Source of the DNA: Glaciecola sp.
GTDB lineage: Bacteria; Pseudomonadota; Gammaproteobacteria; Enterobacterales; Alteromonadaceae
Direction of reading: 5' to 3'
Assembly (NCBI GenBank): GCA_029246415.1
Contig: JAQWNF010000030.1
Coordinates: forward strand, 1 to 64,000
DNA length: 64,000 nt
Shown here: one piece after another, positions 57,391 to 63,304 of the stretch
How the letters are laid out: each line of letters opens with the position of its first letter
Numbering within the stretch: position 1 is the stretch's first letter
Made by a program: the position numbers and the translations under genes
The notes under the pieces: model-generated
Seen by the model: the letters and a program-made list of their open reading frames with translations, nothing else
What the model was told of the DNA's origin: nothing
Databases searched by the model: none

Positions 57391-59190
57391 TCATTTTTTA
57401 CTTAAACGGCCAATGTGGCTTTCTAAATTCATCCCACCGGCACGTTGTGCTCGTTGATAGTAGTACAGGGCTTCGATGTTACGTTGGCGTTTTTCTAGCA
57501 TCTTTGCCGCTTGCAAATTCATATAGCCATCATGGGGCATGGCATCAGCAAGAATCACTGTAATTTTTATCACCATGTCGATGTCTTTATTTTTCTTATA
57601 GCGTGCCAATGCAGTATTCATCATCTCCAACCAACTGACTTGTTGCAGATGCGCAGCTTTACCTAACGCTGTCTCCCAATTATGTGGAGTCGGCAACGTA
57701 ATAGGTTGGGGGATTTCCGTAAATGGGTAATCTGCCATTAAGGTTAGTACATCAGCAAAGCCTTGATACTCTTCACTTGGCAGAATGGGACGACGTTGCC
57801 AAGCGGTATTAGCGTTAATAAAATACTGAGCCTGTTGCTTAGAGGCTAGCAAATCTAATTGCCACAAACGATCATAAAACGCATTAGCAATGACAAAGTA
57901 ACCACTTACGTTAGGGTGTAAATGCTCTAACATCAGGTTGCGTCCAATTATCTTGTTGGGGCTGCGTTGTCTTAGCGCAGCTTGCGCATCAACGAGTGCG
58001 ACATGGGTAAACTCTGCAGACAATTCTCGGATAATATCATTGATCACGCTAGGTGCTCTAAAACGTAATAAGTCATGCTCGGTCGCGAGTGCAAACTGAG
58101 TTTGCGCACATGCTATCAACTGGCGTGCGATACAATATTGTCCCAACTGATAGTGCAGCTGTGCACTTGGCTGAGTGAGTGCACCTGCTGCAGTAACTAG
58201 ATGCGCTAGCTGTGTTTTAACCTGTGCTAAATCGCGCTGAGATTGCAGTTGTTGTAATTTGTCCAATAGCTCAGTTGGGATCGGGTTACTCTCAAAAGGA
58301 GGATGGTCTTGCTCATTACTCGCAACAGTCGATATGAGTACTGGAATATTGGCATCACCATAACGACTTAATAATGCGTGCATATTATGGCGAAATTGCG
58401 CTACCCCTGCTGCAAAAATAGCTGATTCGGTTGCGATCTGTTTATGCTTTGCTACTTTGGACATTAATGTGCGTGATGATCGTTCGCTAGCGTCGCTTCG
58501 TGAGTTGCTTGCCGAGTTGCTAGGCGAATTACTTGCCGAATTAGTCGCCGAATTAGTTGGCAATTTATTTGACGTTATACGGTTAAGTGTATTTTGTATC
58601 AATTGAAATACGCGCCAGTTCCGCAGTGCTAAAAACCATCGTGTAGACGTACTTGAGCCAGCCACTACAAAGTTTGATCCCACACCTAAGATCCCCAAAA
58701 ACTCATTATGCCCGGCGTAAATAAGTACGCCGTCTGGTTGTTGCTCAATAATTTCATCAGCAAAATCTAACAACGTATATGAATTCACCGCTGACATAGC
58801 AGTATTGATTACTTCAACATAATGACCCGGTTTAGAGGCACGCACGCGACTTTCGAGCATTCCCGCCAAAGAGGCACCTAAACCATAGGGATAGCCCGCA
58901 GCCGTTGAGCCACCTTGTACAAATAAACGAAAGCCATTATCGGGTTTGTCTTTAAGTAAAAAATTGGCTTCCATGCTTACAGGCGGCACTGAGCTGTTTT
59001 GAGCAAAGTAGCGTTTGATAATATCCGGTCTGGGTAATTGATATTCCGAATGGGAGGGGTTATCAATAAAGAGTGGATAATCTTGGCCATAATTACCCAA
59101 GCGCAATGCCATTTCTAATAACAAAAAGAACAGGATCGGTAAGCTAATTGCAATCCCGTACATCAGCCAAATGGGAGGAGATTTTTTCAT
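57391..59190 (-). CDS. SGNH/GDSL hydrolase-like membrane protein (second of a tandem pair)
   Basis: 599 aa. One N-terminal membrane helix (about residues 8-28), then an SGNH fold: catalytic Ser in FVQGGSTAAGYPYG, the GHNEFLG block and the Asp/Glu-His block LEHLHPNVSGY, followed by helical, TPR-like repeats. A low-complexity stretch near residues 212-235 (NSATNSASNSPSNSASNS) interrupts the domain and is encoded by imperfect 12-bp repeats. It overlaps its paralogue by 4 bp (translational coupling). Probable esterase or acetyl-transfer role in cell-envelope modification. Confidence 0.82.
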   Translation of the reverse strand: MKKSPPIWLMYGIAISLPILFFLLLEMALRLGNYGQDYPLFIDNPSHSEYQLPRPDIIKRYFAQNSSVPPVSMEANFLLKDKPDNGFRLFVQGGSTAAGYPYGLGASLAGMLESRVRASKPGHYVEVINTAMSAVNSYTLLDFADEIIEQQPDGVLIYAGHNEFLGILGVGSNFVVAGSSTSTRWFLALRNWRVFQLIQNTLNRITSNKLPTNSATNSASNSPSNSASNSRSDASERSSRTLMSKVAKHKQIATESAIFAAGVAQFRHNMHALLSRYGDANIPVLISTVASNEQDHPPFESNPIPTELLDKLQQLQSQRDLAQVKTQLAHLVTAAGALTQPSAQLHYQLGQYCIARQLIACAQTQFALATEHDLLRFRAPSVINDIIRELSAEFTHVALVDAQAALRQRSPNKIIGRNLMLEHLHPNVSGYFVIANAFYDRLWQLDLLASKQQAQYFINANTAWQRRPILPSEEYQGFADVLTLMADYPFTEIPQPITLPTPHNWETALGKAAHLQQVSWLEMMNTALARYKKNKDIDMVIKITVILADAMPHDGYMNLQAAKMLEKRQRNIEALYYYQRAQRAGGMNLESHIGRLSKK

Positions 59191-61019
59191 GACGTACTGC
59201 TCATATGTTGCTGGATTTGTTTCAGGTATTGTTGCGCTTGGGGATGATTAGGCTGCAATGTCAGCACGGTTTGTAATGATGTGATAGCTTGCTCATATAA
59301 GCGTTTGTTGAACTGGATTTGCGCCAGGCTCAAACGCATATTGACATCACTTGGGGCAAGCTCTATTGCATGTAACGCATAATAATGGGCGTAATCAAAA
59401 CTACCTGCTCGGCGATACAAGTTGGCTGCACCAATAGCATATTGAGGGTTGAAGGGCAGGCCATCGGCTAAGGTACTGGCGGCATTAGCGGCTAACAACC
59501 ATTGTTGCGTGTTTTGATAATGATTAACCAATAACGTTTGTTGTTTTAGGTAGTCATTCTCATTGATGCGAGCTAGACCAATCTGTTCAGCTGGCTCGGT
59601 CGCAATCAGCGTCGGTACCGGTTGCGGGGATGCGGTAAAAGGGTAATCTGATGTCAGGTTATTGATTTTATGTTGCGCAAAAATAATATCTGCAGCACTG
59701 ATTTGACTATGTTGCTGTGCAATCGCTTGGGTTTGTGTATAAGGAGCTTGTGGCAAGAAACCTCGCTCAATCATCGCTTTCAGTGCGCTATGTGCCAATA
59801 ATGTATAGCCCTTAGCATTGGGATGTAAATGCTCCAACATCAACTCATTACCTATAACACCATCCGTACTCGCCTCGATTAATGCCTCTTTACCTGCAAC
59901 CAAGTGAACATTCGGGTGTTGTTGTGCGATATCCGTAATAATCGCATTGAAGTGTTCGGGTGCACGAAAACGCAAGCCATCGAGGTTGCGTGCTGTGGTC
60001 AAATATTGTTTCGCTTTGGTCAGGTTAGTGGATTGTTGTAGGGGTAGTGTGTTGAGTAATGCCTGTCCATAGCGATAATTGACCAGTGCGTGATAACTAT
60101 GTTGCTGATACAGGGATTGAAGTTGTGTCAGTGAGGTAGCATCCGAATCTAACTCGTTTGCTGCAGCAGTAGGAAGTGTATAAGAGCTGTTAAACGGGAC
60201 TTGGTCACGGTCATTACTGGCTATAGTCGATAAAAATACGGGTAAGCCTGCAGAGTCAAACTGCGTCACAATATGCTTTAGGTTATCACTAAACTGATTG
60301 ATACCGGCCATATATGCAGGTGACTCAAACGCAATGGATTGATTTTTAGCGATACTCGCCATGACGGTTCTTGTATTGGCTGTGGCTGATTCGTGTGCTT
60401 GATTATCTAACAGTGCTAATATTACGGCCTGCATTAACTGTACTATGCGCCATTCTTTTAATGATAAATACAGTAAGTTAAGGCCATGACTGCCTAACCC
60501 TTGATAACTAGAGCCAACTCCCATTACACCTAGGTACTCATTATGCCCAGCATAGATATAAATCGCATCGGGTTGAATGTCTAATACCTCATCGACAAAA
60601 TCACGCAGCATATAGGTATTAATCGAAGACATAGACACATTAATCACTTCGATTTTTTGTTCGGGGTATAAACCTTTTAGACGATGTTGCAAGATCCCAG
60701 CTGGCGCACCGAAACGACCATACGGAAAACCTGCTGCACTTGATCCTCCCATAGCAACAATGCGCAACGTATTTTGTGGTTTTTGTGCGAGGAAAAACTG
60801 CGTATCGATAGCGACATTGGGCGCGGCTTCTGGAGAGGGGAAATAGCGCTGAATAACATCAGGGTTAGGTTGAATGTAAGCCGGTTGATTGGGCACGGGT
60901 ATAAATAAGTCGTGGCTGCTGCCGTACCCACTGATGCGCAATATCCCTTCTATACCTATTAAGACGATGATGGGAATCACAAGCGCGATGGCATAAAACC
61001 AAGTTTGGGCTTTTTTCAT
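59187..61019 (-). CDS. SGNH/GDSL hydrolase-like protein with C-terminal TPR (first of a tandem pair)
   Basis: 610 aa from ATG 61019 (MKKAQTWFY); the in-frame TTG at 61037 adds six residues. One N-terminal membrane helix, SGNH blocks (AMGGSSAAGFPYG, AGHNEYLGVMG, LEHLHPNAKGY) and clear TPRs at the C-terminus (YAIGAANLYRRAGSFDYAHYYALHAIELAP; LYEQAITSLQTVLTLQPNHPQA). Paralogue of the next gene with the same layout. A carbamoyltransferase gene lies nearby on the other side of the AFG1-like gene; SGNH proteins and carbamoyltransferases are often neighbours. Confidence 0.84.
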   Translation of the reverse strand: MKKAQTWFYAIALVIPIIVLIGIEGILRISGYGSSHDLFIPVPNQPAYIQPNPDVIQRYFPSPEAAPNVAIDTQFFLAQKPQNTLRIVAMGGSSAAGFPYGRFGAPAGILQHRLKGLYPEQKIEVINVSMSSINTYMLRDFVDEVLDIQPDAIYIYAGHNEYLGVMGVGSSYQGLGSHGLNLLYLSLKEWRIVQLMQAVILALLDNQAHESATANTRTVMASIAKNQSIAFESPAYMAGINQFSDNLKHIVTQFDSAGLPVFLSTIASNDRDQVPFNSSYTLPTAAANELDSDATSLTQLQSLYQQHSYHALVNYRYGQALLNTLPLQQSTNLTKAKQYLTTARNLDGLRFRAPEHFNAIITDIAQQHPNVHLVAGKEALIEASTDGVIGNELMLEHLHPNAKGYTLLAHSALKAMIERGFLPQAPYTQTQAIAQQHSQISAADIIFAQHKINNLTSDYPFTASPQPVPTLIATEPAEQIGLARINENDYLKQQTLLVNHYQNTQQWLLAANAASTLADGLPFNPQYAIGAANLYRRAGSFDYAHYYALHAIELAPSDVNMRLSLAQIQFNKRLYEQAITSLQTVLTLQPNHPQAQQYLKQIQQHMSSTS

Positions 61020-61175
61020 TATTATTAGTGTCCGCAAAAATGATGAATATTGTTAATGAATTGAGTATATCTTGTTTCATCCTAAGTGAACAACCCCGTG
61101 ACATCGCTATGCTCTCAAGCCTATGCGTTGCCACATTTTGATCCCCATACAGAATTCTAGTGTACATACCATCAT

Positions 61176-62672
61176 GTGGATAAATTCATCAGCTCCATGA
61201 TGAAGGCGATGATAAAGATGAATATGAAAACGATGATAGCACAACATCGCGTCGCTCGGCGTGACTTATCGAAAGGCCCCGTGGCAGCGGCTTATGAACT
61301 CAAGGTGGACGCGGGGGAGGTGCGACGAGATAACGCGCAAGTCGCTCTGGCGGCAAAATTCGATGCCCTGCACGAGTCTCTTGCTTCGCTCCCACCAGTT
61401 CACGTATGCACCGACTATGCGACAGAGAGTAGCAGTACAAGCAGCAGTCCACTGTTACTGGCGCGATCGCTGGCATCCGCCCAGTCCTTTCTTCGAAAGA
61501 AGTTACATCCGAGGTCTTATGCTCCATCACCGCGAGGCATGTACATTTATGGACCGGTCGGGGTCGGCAAGAGCTTTCTAATGGATCTCTTTTACGCGTC
61601 GGTTTCTGTTCCTGACGAGGGTTCTTGCGGTGATAATGACAGTCACAAACACGCAAAGATTACCAAACGCAGAGTCCACTTCCATGAATTCATGCTAGAT
61701 GTCCATCATCGAATCTTTGTCATCAAACAGAAGCACCCACGAGATGATGCGATTCCCATCATTGCGCAACAATTGGCACGAGAAGCCCAACTCCTGTGTT
61801 TCGATGAATTTCAAGTGACAGATATTGCCGATGCCGTGATTTTAAAGCGACTGTTTTTATTATTATTGGATTTGAATGTCGTGGTGGTGGCCACCTCGAA
61901 TCGAGCCCCAGATGCCTTGTATGAGGGAGGCATTAACCGCTCCCTATTCTTGCCATTCATCGACATGTTGAAACAGACGTCCGACATTATTTCCATGGAG
62001 GCTTCCTGCAAGGATTATCGACTCGAAAATCGAGCGGGCGGTCAATCCTACTTTTGGTCTAATTCAGATGTTCATGGCGATATTAATAACAATATACAGG
62101 CGCAGTTAGAAGCAATATTTGGTGGCACAGCATCCGTAACTGAGGCAGAAAGCATTTCCGTCCTCTTTGGTCGTGCCGTCCGATTGAATGATCGGTGCGC
62201 CTGGTTTGACTTTTCCGAGTTGTGTTTCCAACCGCTCGGAGCGGCCGATTATATTTCCCTCTGCAATCGATTTCCGATCCTCATTATGGATCGCGTTCCT
62301 CAATTGGACGCCAATTACCTCAACGAAGCGCGACGGTTTGTGACCCTCATTGACGCTTGTTATGAATCTCGAACCCGCTTGGTGCTGTCGGCACAAGTCC
62401 CACTCGACGAGTTGTTTGTCGATTTTGAAGCGCAAGTCGTAAGCAGTGATGGAGATGAAGAGTTATTTGTGAGTGACAAGGGGGGAAATTCGAGTTCGTT
62501 TGCGACGACCATGATCCGTAACAAAGATGGGGAATATTGGGAGTGGTCGGCGACCGGTCGAATTGACGTGTCACTGGCACAATTATCGTCCGCCAATGAT
62601 CTCTCCTTTTCTTTTCGACGAGCCGCGTCTCGATTGGCAGAAATGGGTGGAAAAGAATGGGGACGGCAATGA
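61176..62672 (+). CDS. AFG1-type AAA ATPase of eukaryotic (plant/algal/stramenopile) appearance
   Basis: 498 aa. Walker A YGPVGVGKSFLMDLFY, VHFHEFMLDVHHRI, Walker B LLCFDEFQVTDIADAVILKRLF, VVVATSNRAPDALY and RRFVTLIDACYE are AFG1/ZapE motifs. HFHEFMLDVHHRIFVIKQKHP is closer to mitochondrial AFG1 than to ZapE, and the C-terminal WSATGR-x5-SLAQLSSANDLSFSFRRAASRLAEM block with its insertion is a plant/algal-type AFG1 signature absent from E. coli ZapE (375 aa). Codon use differs sharply from neighbours: CGA is about 20 of 33 Arg codons by hand count, and GC is higher. GTG 61176 opens the frame, with several ATGs near 61197-61233 as alternatives; no clear ribosome binding site. The frame is intact and intronless. 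Native ZapE would be elsewhere. Confidence 0.85.
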   Translation: MDKFISSMMKAMIKMNMKTMIAQHRVARRDLSKGPVAAAYELKVDAGEVRRDNAQVALAAKFDALHESLASLPPVHVCTDYATESSSTSSSPLLLARSLASAQSFLRKKLHPRSYAPSPRGMYIYGPVGVGKSFLMDLFYASVSVPDEGSCGDNDSHKHAKITKRRVHFHEFMLDVHHRIFVIKQKHPRDDAIPIIAQQLAREAQLLCFDEFQVTDIADAVILKRLFLLLLDLNVVVVATSNRAPDALYEGGINRSLFLPFIDMLKQTSDIISMEASCKDYRLENRAGGQSYFWSNSDVHGDINNNIQAQLEAIFGGTASVTEAESISVLFGRAVRLNDRCAWFDFSELCFQPLGAADYISLCNRFPILIMDRVPQLDANYLNEARRFVTLIDACYESRTRLVLSAQVPLDELFVDFEAQVVSSDGDEELFVSDKGGNSSSFATTMIRNKDGEYWEWSATGRIDVSLAQLSSANDLSFSFRRAASRLAEMGGKEWGRQ

Positions 62673-62929
62673 CGAAAGGTCTTTACCTTACCAACTATTG
62701 CATCCATTCATACCAAATATTCCTTAGCGGCCGAAATACGTACATAAGAGACTGTCAGCTTTGGTCGTATTCTGTTTTTGAAAATGTCAGACTAAATGAT
62801 GACGAATCCAGTGCAAGAACAAGGGGAGCGATTCATCCCAGCGACGTCACTGTCGTTGCAATCACGGGTTTTCTCGCTAAAGATCTATAAAAATTTCACC
62901 AGTAATATATTAACTATGGACGGATAATT
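62673..62929. other. Gap between the AFG1-like gene and the lipoprotein gene
   Basis: 257 bp with no supportable gene. An open frame at 62657-62890 matches nothing recognisable. Base composition shifts from mixed to AT-rich near 62880, close to the likely boundary between the foreign segment and resident sequence. Confidence 0.5.
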
Positions 62930-63304
62930 ATGAAAACAACACACCCCTTCAATGCATCATCATTGAAACTACCTTTACTCTCGCTGGTTGTATTGGGTAC
63001 TTTAGGTTTAAGCGCTTGCTCAGATCAGTCTGCAAAAGACAAAGAGGCGGCGGCAAATAAAGAAACGACCGTTGTAGATACCATGAAGAAAAATGCAACA
63101 GATGCGAAAAATGCATCCGCCGATATGCTTGATAAAACCAAAAACAAAGACAAAGCCACAGCTTATGGCACTGAAGTAGCTGATAAAGCTGCAGCAGATA
63201 AAGCCGCTGAGTACAAAGACGCAGCAATAGATAAATTAACAGCAGGCAAAGATAAACTATCCGATATGAAAGCTAAGGCGATGGATAAAAAATCTGATGC
63301 TTAA
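62930..63304 (+). CDS. Small Lys/Ala-rich lipoprotein
   Basis: 124 aa. Signal peptide with lipobox LSAC (Cys about residue 30), then a highly charged, Ala/Lys/Asp-rich helical region (TMKKNATDAKNASADMLDKTK; ADKAAADKAAEYKDAAIDKL). ACGGATAA lies before the ATG. The stop TAA at 63302 is followed in the same frame by 17 further codons (EMLEKAKEKVTDGDGGH) to a second TAA at 63356-63358, so the gene may be recently shortened. Function unknown; the composition resembles small stress-type lipoproteins. Confidence 0.75.
   Translation: MKTTHPFNASSLKLPLLSLVVLGTLGLSACSDQSAKDKEAAANKETTVVDTMKKNATDAKNASADMLDKTKNKDKATAYGTEVADKAAADKAAEYKDAAIDKLTAGKDKLSDMKAKAMDKKSDA

Follow-up and report, generated by a model that had tools for sequence, protein, structure and literature searches.

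An AFG1-type AAA+ ATPase gene of probable eukaryotic ancestry circulating among marine Gammaproteobacteria

Few genes are known to have passed from eukaryotes into free-living bacteria, and fewer still have been shown to be under selection inside the bacteria. The closest described relatives of the gene presented here are AFG1, which works with Oxa1 in mitochondria, and ZapE, which acts in bacterial division (PMC7314023). In the published tree, the eukaryotic ZapE/AFG1 proteins group with alphaproteobacterial ZapE (PMC7314023). A literature search covering titles and the openings of abstracts returned nothing about an AFG1-type gene in marine bacteria.

The gene lies in a window of 64,000 nucleotides, the whole stretch of Glaciecola sp. 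DNA that was analyzed, and is a xenologue: an extra AFG1-type AAA+ ATPase gene that circulates among marine Gammaproteobacteria. Like eukaryotic AFG1 (LACE1), the proteins of this clade have the AFG1_ATPase core, and a basic N-terminal leader and extra residues before the last helix may be further points of likeness; unlike the eukaryotic genes, those of the clade sit in bacterial chromosomes and are intronless. The native gammaproteobacterial ZapE, encoded at C25 of the same genome, belongs to the same family as the window protein and differs from it in sequence (about 33% identity), in a spacing of 34 residues between two conserved C-terminal blocks, and in its place in the other half of the family tree. 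The features of the locus are collected in Table 1.

Table 1. Coordinates of the AFG1-type locus in the window
Feature	Position	Strand	Remarks
AFG1-type AAA+ ATPase gene	61176..62672	+	498 codons as called, from open reading frame and profile matches
Basic leader, mitochondrial-presequence-like	61197..61274	+	Immediately ahead of GPV..AYELKV, the conserved motif that opens the AFG1 core
Walker A, GPVGVGKS	61551..61574	+	Residues 126-133; G126, V128, G129, G131, K132 and S133 invariant in 46 sequences
Walker B, CFDEF	61797..61811	+	Residues 208-212; C208, F209, D210 and E211 invariant in 46 sequences
57-residue C-terminal insertion	62421..62591 (ends approximate)	+	Before the FSFRRAASRLAEM helix
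DNA block common to other copies	61137..62702	+	Match starts at 61137/61138 in 18 and ends at 62665-62702 in 29 of 30 other loci
Left intergenic junction, GDSL gene to shared block	61038..61136	.	Empty-site match in G002 ends at 61077
Right junction, to lipoprotein-like gene	62703..62929	.	Empty-site match in G004 resumes at 62905

The open reading frame is called from a GTG and has no internal stop, and the preliminary description was right to report an intact frame of 498 codons among bacterial genes. The protein scores 264 bits against the Pfam AFG1_ATPase model (PF03969; curated cut-off 27) and 305 bits against NCBIfam ZapE (cut-off 140), and with intact Walker A and B motifs it belongs to the AFG1_ATPase family. 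The two blocks that the preliminary description likened to plant, algal, and stramenopile AFG1, HFHEFMLDVHHRI and WSATGR...SLAQLSSANDLSFSFRRAASRLAEM, are present. An AlphaFold2 model (mean pLDDT 74.9, pTM 0.67) supports an AAA+ core, and a fold search of the PDB with this model returned general AAA+ matches (IstB, DnaA, DnaC and others); a sequence search of PDB chains at E 0.01 gave no match to the window protein. The C-terminal insertion is not resolved in the model, since residues 418-465 lie mostly below a pLDDT of 50. In the copy of G011 (L014 5990-7594), a variable loop carries a His-Lys tandem expansion (NHNHKHKHKHKHKHKHKHAK) that is longer than in nine other aligned copies.

The preliminary description had also singled out the composition of the gene, and the measured values bear this out. 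Its GC content is 0.493 versus 0.409-0.443 in five neighboring genes, one of which is cut by the end of the window. CGA accounts for 20 of its 34 arginine codons (about 20 of 33 had been estimated), as against 12 of 76 in the five neighbors pooled, where CGC (27) and CGT (25) are the main codons. The share of CGA among arginine codons exceeds that of native zapE in all 29 hosts compared. Two GDSL-type genes lie to the left; to the right, a small lipoprotein-like gene that matches no Pfam family is followed by a carbamoyltransferase gene. The two adjoining GDSL-lipase-like genes (57391-61037), the right one with weak TPR matches, have similar pairs in several congeners. The lipoprotein-like gene (62930-63304) stops about 20 codons before its counterpart L186 in G004, and sequence resembling the end of that counterpart continues past the stop.

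The gene had been described as foreign and unlike bacterial ZapE, and the presence of a separate zapE in the genome agrees with this: in a Pfam search of the whole genome the native gene scores 507 bits and the window gene 249. An additional, better family match, the native ZapE, was found in all 19 carriers searched through their loci. In the family tree the gene does not group with the native ZapE of its host class, as a gammaproteobacterial orthologue would, and lies in the opposite half (support 100). Several related genomes hold a second ZapE-like paralogue (L016-L021, L122 and L123; 369-424 residues in L016-L021) that forms a tree group of its own with support 87. In G005 (L009, C112), an AFG1-like gene lies about 1 kb from native zapE, which is probably a coincidence.

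At least 46 distinct copies, the window's included, were found in marine Gammaproteobacteria of several families and many genera; these 46 correspond to 47 distinct translations of open reading frames, and two more were added later: the second of two copies in one Glaciecola genome and, in G296, a copy truncated by the end of its contig. A Pfam-model search of 40 relatives found the gene in seven of nine congeners, where the preliminary description had proposed to look for it, and in two genomes of other genera, at 73.5-84.7% identity by BLAST. The genus thus has eight carriers among 10 genomes, the window's own included. A scan of GTDB genomes gave, among the best 80 matches, at least 21 loci at 72-84% identity (two of them in genomes already counted as G001 and G019), followed by a sharp drop to alphaproteobacterial and Nitrosomonas proteins at 36-45%. 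These carriers belong to Glaciecola, Alteromonas, Marinomonas, Marinobacter, Nitrincola, Rheinheimera, Opacimonas, Marinobacterium, Thalassolituus, and uncultured bacteria. Sampling found the gene in 31 of 395 genomes of the family (partial copies included), four of 398 of the phylum, and two of 369 of the class; each of these counts includes the genome that holds the window. Some copies are decayed: the matches in G318 and G272 are split between frames (the latter also at a contig end), that in G199 comprises residues 256-498 only, and that of L041 stops at residue 413, 128 bases short of the contig end. Three scans of viral contigs gave no confirmed relative, and the 52 plasmid and five phage records that match are all below 60% identity and include no clade member. 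The genus holds phycosphere bacteria: one carrier, G001, is Opacimonas viscosa, and another species of Opacimonas, O. immobilis, was obtained from a culture of a diatom (PMC12844025).

The copies occupy different chromosomal places. The window's site is empty in all six relatives inspected, four of which hold the gene on another contig. In G004, the GDSL, lipoprotein, and carbamoyltransferase genes follow one another as in the window with the AFG1-type gene absent, and in G001, G002, G003, G005, and G009 the GDSL and carbamoyltransferase genes are 150-220 bases apart at this site. A single transfer into one genome, as first envisaged, is not supported by this spread: eight of the 10 genomes in the genus and 31 of the 395 in the family carry the gene, further families have it too, and the copies sit at different sites. 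The copy of G005 shows what was inserted elsewhere, with about 1.9 kb replacing some 60-80 bases of the site that is empty in G002 (surroundings 96% identical) and G000. Comparison of the first and last 150 bases of this insert found no exact repeat of 9 bases or more, and neither terminal nor target repeats were found. The empty site in G003 corresponding to the G009 copy was also considered, but its downstream flank matches, at 74%, only from query base 659 on, and it gives no exact junction.

In the loci examined, the AFG1-type unit showed none of the marks of a transposon or integron cassette, such as terminal repeats, a target duplication, a recombinase of its own, or an element listed in Rfam. 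Among 30 neighboring proteins scanned with Pfam, out of 51 neighboring open reading frames found, 24 have a family, including one phage integrase and one resolvase, and six have none; no mobility gene of the unit's own was found among the 30. An Rfam search of the window and 17 loci returned one tRNA and nothing else. Noncoding flank pieces of up to about 400 bases are common to copies in different hosts in a mosaic fashion, and therefore somewhat more than the gene itself can travel. Right of the gene, a noncoding piece (62814-62893), perhaps a dispersed repeat, has matches of 79-83% identity in G003 and, twice, in G001. A motif close to CGACCTAAAGCTGACGTT occurs in the outer flanks of a few copies (L022, L023, L027, and L014); with five matches in 53 kb near copies and three in 129 kb far from them, the counts are too few to support it as the mark of a mobile element.

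The divergence of the copies does not follow that of their hosts, which is the basis for horizontal movement. Over 29 hosts (406 pairs), the median identity of the copies is 0.81 versus 0.61 for native ZapE, the copies are more identical in 355 pairs, and the two identities correlate at a Spearman coefficient of -0.10. Median identity at four-fold sites is 0.77 for the copies and 0.29 for native zapE. Conversely, the AFG1-type copies of G007 and G009 are only 73% identical in hosts with 99% identical native ZapE, and the two copies of one Glaciecola genome share 84% identity. The 29 copies are those left after L037 and L039, repeats of G001 and G019, were excluded from the dN/dS, flank, host-divergence, leader, star-tree, and third-position GC sets; the later-found copies L134-L162, L243, and L246 stand outside these counts.

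The AFG1-type gene is under purifying selection in its bacterial hosts. The median pairwise dN/dS is 0.29 (406 pairs), and omega lies at 0.14-0.29 in nine of the 11 close or flank-sharing pairs tried, among them the Alteromonas pair L023/L027 with 2.8 kb of shared upstream sequence (0.23, from 52 synonymous and 42 nonsynonymous changes) and G006/G008, with a 1 kb piece common to their upstream regions (0.14). Values for Marinobacter pairs range over 0.27-0.55, some on few changes, and L025/L041 give 0.48. The tree of the 29 copies is star-like, with inner branches summing to 0.344 and end branches to 1.640. Host groups do not cluster on it, five groups requiring 12 changes where 4 would be the minimum, except that the four Marinobacter copies stay together. 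Third-position GC (GC3) has a mean of 0.535 among the 30% of copies closest to the star center and declines with distance from the center where the host has a lower GC3 (19 hosts, rho -0.79); the 10 other hosts show no clear trend (-0.35, p 0.32). The star shape and the GC3 trend, both from tests picked after the data had been seen and on copies that are not independent, are consistent with a single source of arrival and later drift within the hosts.

Two ordinary explanations can be weighed against these data. An assembly chimera or eukaryotic contamination with two junctions within about 2 kb, which the preliminary description had held out as the alternative, would explain the foreign GC content and codon use. 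It is scarcely credible in the face of the copies' differences in sequence and context, three carriers that are single-contig genomes (G011, G302, and G318, the last with a frame-broken copy), the empty sites in relatives, and the drift of GC3 with distance from the star center in low-GC3 hosts. The other explanation takes the gene for an ordinary duplicate of native zapE, consistent with membership of the same protein family and a score above the NCBIfam ZapE cut-off. Its probability is negligible, as the two proteins share only about a third of their residues, a fully supported branch separates the gene from both native and paralogous gammaproteobacterial ZapE, and its divergence does not track the hosts.

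The origin of the gene is less straightforward, and two features of the protein bear on it. The distance from the conserved RRF..LID to SRLxEM is 91 residues in all 41 measurable copies, six of the 47 clade rows not being measurable. Among 85 measured alpha-, beta-, and gammaproteobacterial rows it is 34 in 84 and 36 in one, the 34 gammaproteobacterial rows including eight paralogues and the fragment L132 of row L009. Spacings of 91 and 34 therefore indicate an insertion of 57 residues, and the clade departs from the value of about 34 expected of alphaproteobacterial ZapE/AFG1. Approximate sequences of human and yeast AFG1 give spacings of 66 and 81, which makes the comparison with eukaryotes a lead. 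The insertion was absent from all 51 measured alphaproteobacterial and Nitrosomonas rows of the scan (seven of the 58 were not measurable). Among 385 genomes from the class of an Azospirillum, 59 match the clade profile at E 1e-70 and none of the 59 reaches its end; in G1010, the match extends to position 456 of 499 and runs through a TGA. A profile of the insertion alone, searched against ten genomes of scan rows, found no match better than E 0.019.

The second feature is the leader, which is rich in K, R, and M. Its last 20 residues before GPV are free of D and E in 27 of 29 copies, the exceptions being one D in the window copy and one E in L042, versus one of 18 comparable scan rows (the start motif was seen in 36 of the 58 rows, and 18 of those 36 have at least 8 residues ahead of it). 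In many copies the leader ends in R-(C/S)-(F/L)-(S/P)-T, which we take to resemble the R-3 type of presequence cleavage site. The leader varies by indels among copies and is the least constrained block of the gene: its mean dN/dS ratio is about 0.55, and the other blocks range over 0.12-0.46. Such relaxation would be expected of a segment that has lost its former role. Translation probably does not begin at the GTG, since the window copy has lost one base in the upstream leader relative to other copies and in-frame ATGs follow; one of those at about 61197-61235 is the likely bacterial start, judging by the sequence. A crude scan for Shine-Dalgarno-like matches found them in five of 29 copies and nine of 29 native zapE genes, counts that are uninformative because the start codons are uncertain.

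In the main family tree, for which the clade was thinned from 42 to 10 rows, it lies in the alphaproteobacterial half, apart from native ZapE and the second gammaproteobacterial paralogue; the preliminary description had asked for such a tree with native ZapE included, and the gene is set apart there by a branch of support 100. The clade's stem measures 1.3 changes per site, and because it is so long any placement is weak. The position fits either a eukaryotic or an alphaproteobacterial source, since eukaryotic ZapE/AFG1 groups in this half in the tree of PMC7314023. A quick tree that included the approximate human and yeast sequences, and from which the gammaproteobacterial row L120 was left out, put the clade among alphaproteobacteria (71) and the human and yeast pair outside (95). 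A more careful tree was built from 40 of 58 scan rows, eight of 25 gammaproteobacterial rows, five of 42 clade rows, the approximate human sequence only, and no paralogues. In this tree, a sister relationship of the clade and the approximate human AFG1 is not rejected (AU p 0.457). By BLAST, the window protein is 40-42% identical to alphaproteobacterial proteins over about 400 positions, the best of them reaching only residue 414, and 33% identical over 478 positions to the approximate human AFG1, reaching residue 495; the yeast sequence, likewise approximate, is 30% identical.

A eukaryotic donor would account for the leader that resembles a presequence, for the C-terminal insertion, and for the codon bias, and on these features a eukaryotic origin is likely by a modest margin; the tree sides with neither source. 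The competing account is purely bacterial: a fast-evolving alphaproteobacterial ZapE/AFG1 would have acquired both the insertion and the leader within bacteria and dispersed through marine Gammaproteobacteria. We regard it as the weaker account, though a possibility that has real weight. The nearest real sequences compared are alphaproteobacterial, mostly at 38-45% identity over the core among the best matches kept, and in the careful tree the clade groups with Azospirillum and Tagaea (97/85). Such a transfer would have a precedent, as Nitrosomonas and two methanotrophs are reported to have received an alphaproteobacterial-type ZapE (PMC7314023), and Nitrosomonas rows sit among the alphaproteobacteria in our family tree. 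The scan rows were themselves picked as best matches to the clade, which may favor their joining it, and the AU test does not reject a topology that unites all alphaproteobacteria to the exclusion of the clade (p 0.39). Moreover, no alphaproteobacterial match runs through the insertion to the end of the protein, either in the measurable scan rows or in the matching genomes of the class, and the leader type is missing from 17 of the 18 comparable rows. The leader could instead mark an effector targeted to mitochondria in a partner alga, in keeping with its lack of acidic residues in nearly all copies and with a genus from the phycosphere. This is very improbable, for the leader is the least constrained part of the gene, with indels and a lost base in the window, and no secretion gene was named among the 30 scanned neighbors, six of them without a family.

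The history toward which we lean, with some reserve, is that the gene is a xenologue descended from eukaryotic mitochondrial AFG1, spread by DNA uptake and recombination, and now serving as an inner-membrane ATPase chaperone. Its ancestor would be the nuclear gene that encodes mitochondrial AFG1 in a eukaryote, a gene that in turn descends from alphaproteobacteria, and the donor would probably have been a phytoplankton cell sharing the phycosphere. The bacterial gene would have kept traces of the presequence and the C-terminal insertion as relics. Spread may have proceeded through uptake of free DNA followed by non-homologous or flank-assisted recombination, leaving the gene in unrelated chromosomal places beside the native zapE that accompanies it in the carriers examined. 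By analogy with AFG1 and Oxa1, the protein is perhaps an inner-membrane ATPase that acts on membrane proteins with YidC; its substrates would be membrane-inserted subunits of the respiratory chain, and it might work in addition to native ZapE or in competition with it. Since the star-shaped tree and the fall of GC3 in lower-GC3 hosts fit repeated arrivals at different times from one source, a more specific version can be put forward, though we hold it doubtful: phycosphere bacteria would have taken up a marine alga's nuclear gene for a mitochondrial AAA+ ATPase again and again, each time from the same slowly changing source, and domesticated it.

With at least 46 copies, culturable carriers such as Alteromonas genovensis, empty sites, a signal of constraint, and a native paralogue for comparison, this gene family offers a testable case of transfer. 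Genes that score as ZapE in marine bacteria can have two quite different origins. If the donor was eukaryotic, a mitochondrial gene would have returned to bacteria and been reused there, and these carriers would provide a bacterial system for studying what AFG1 does with Oxa1/YidC.
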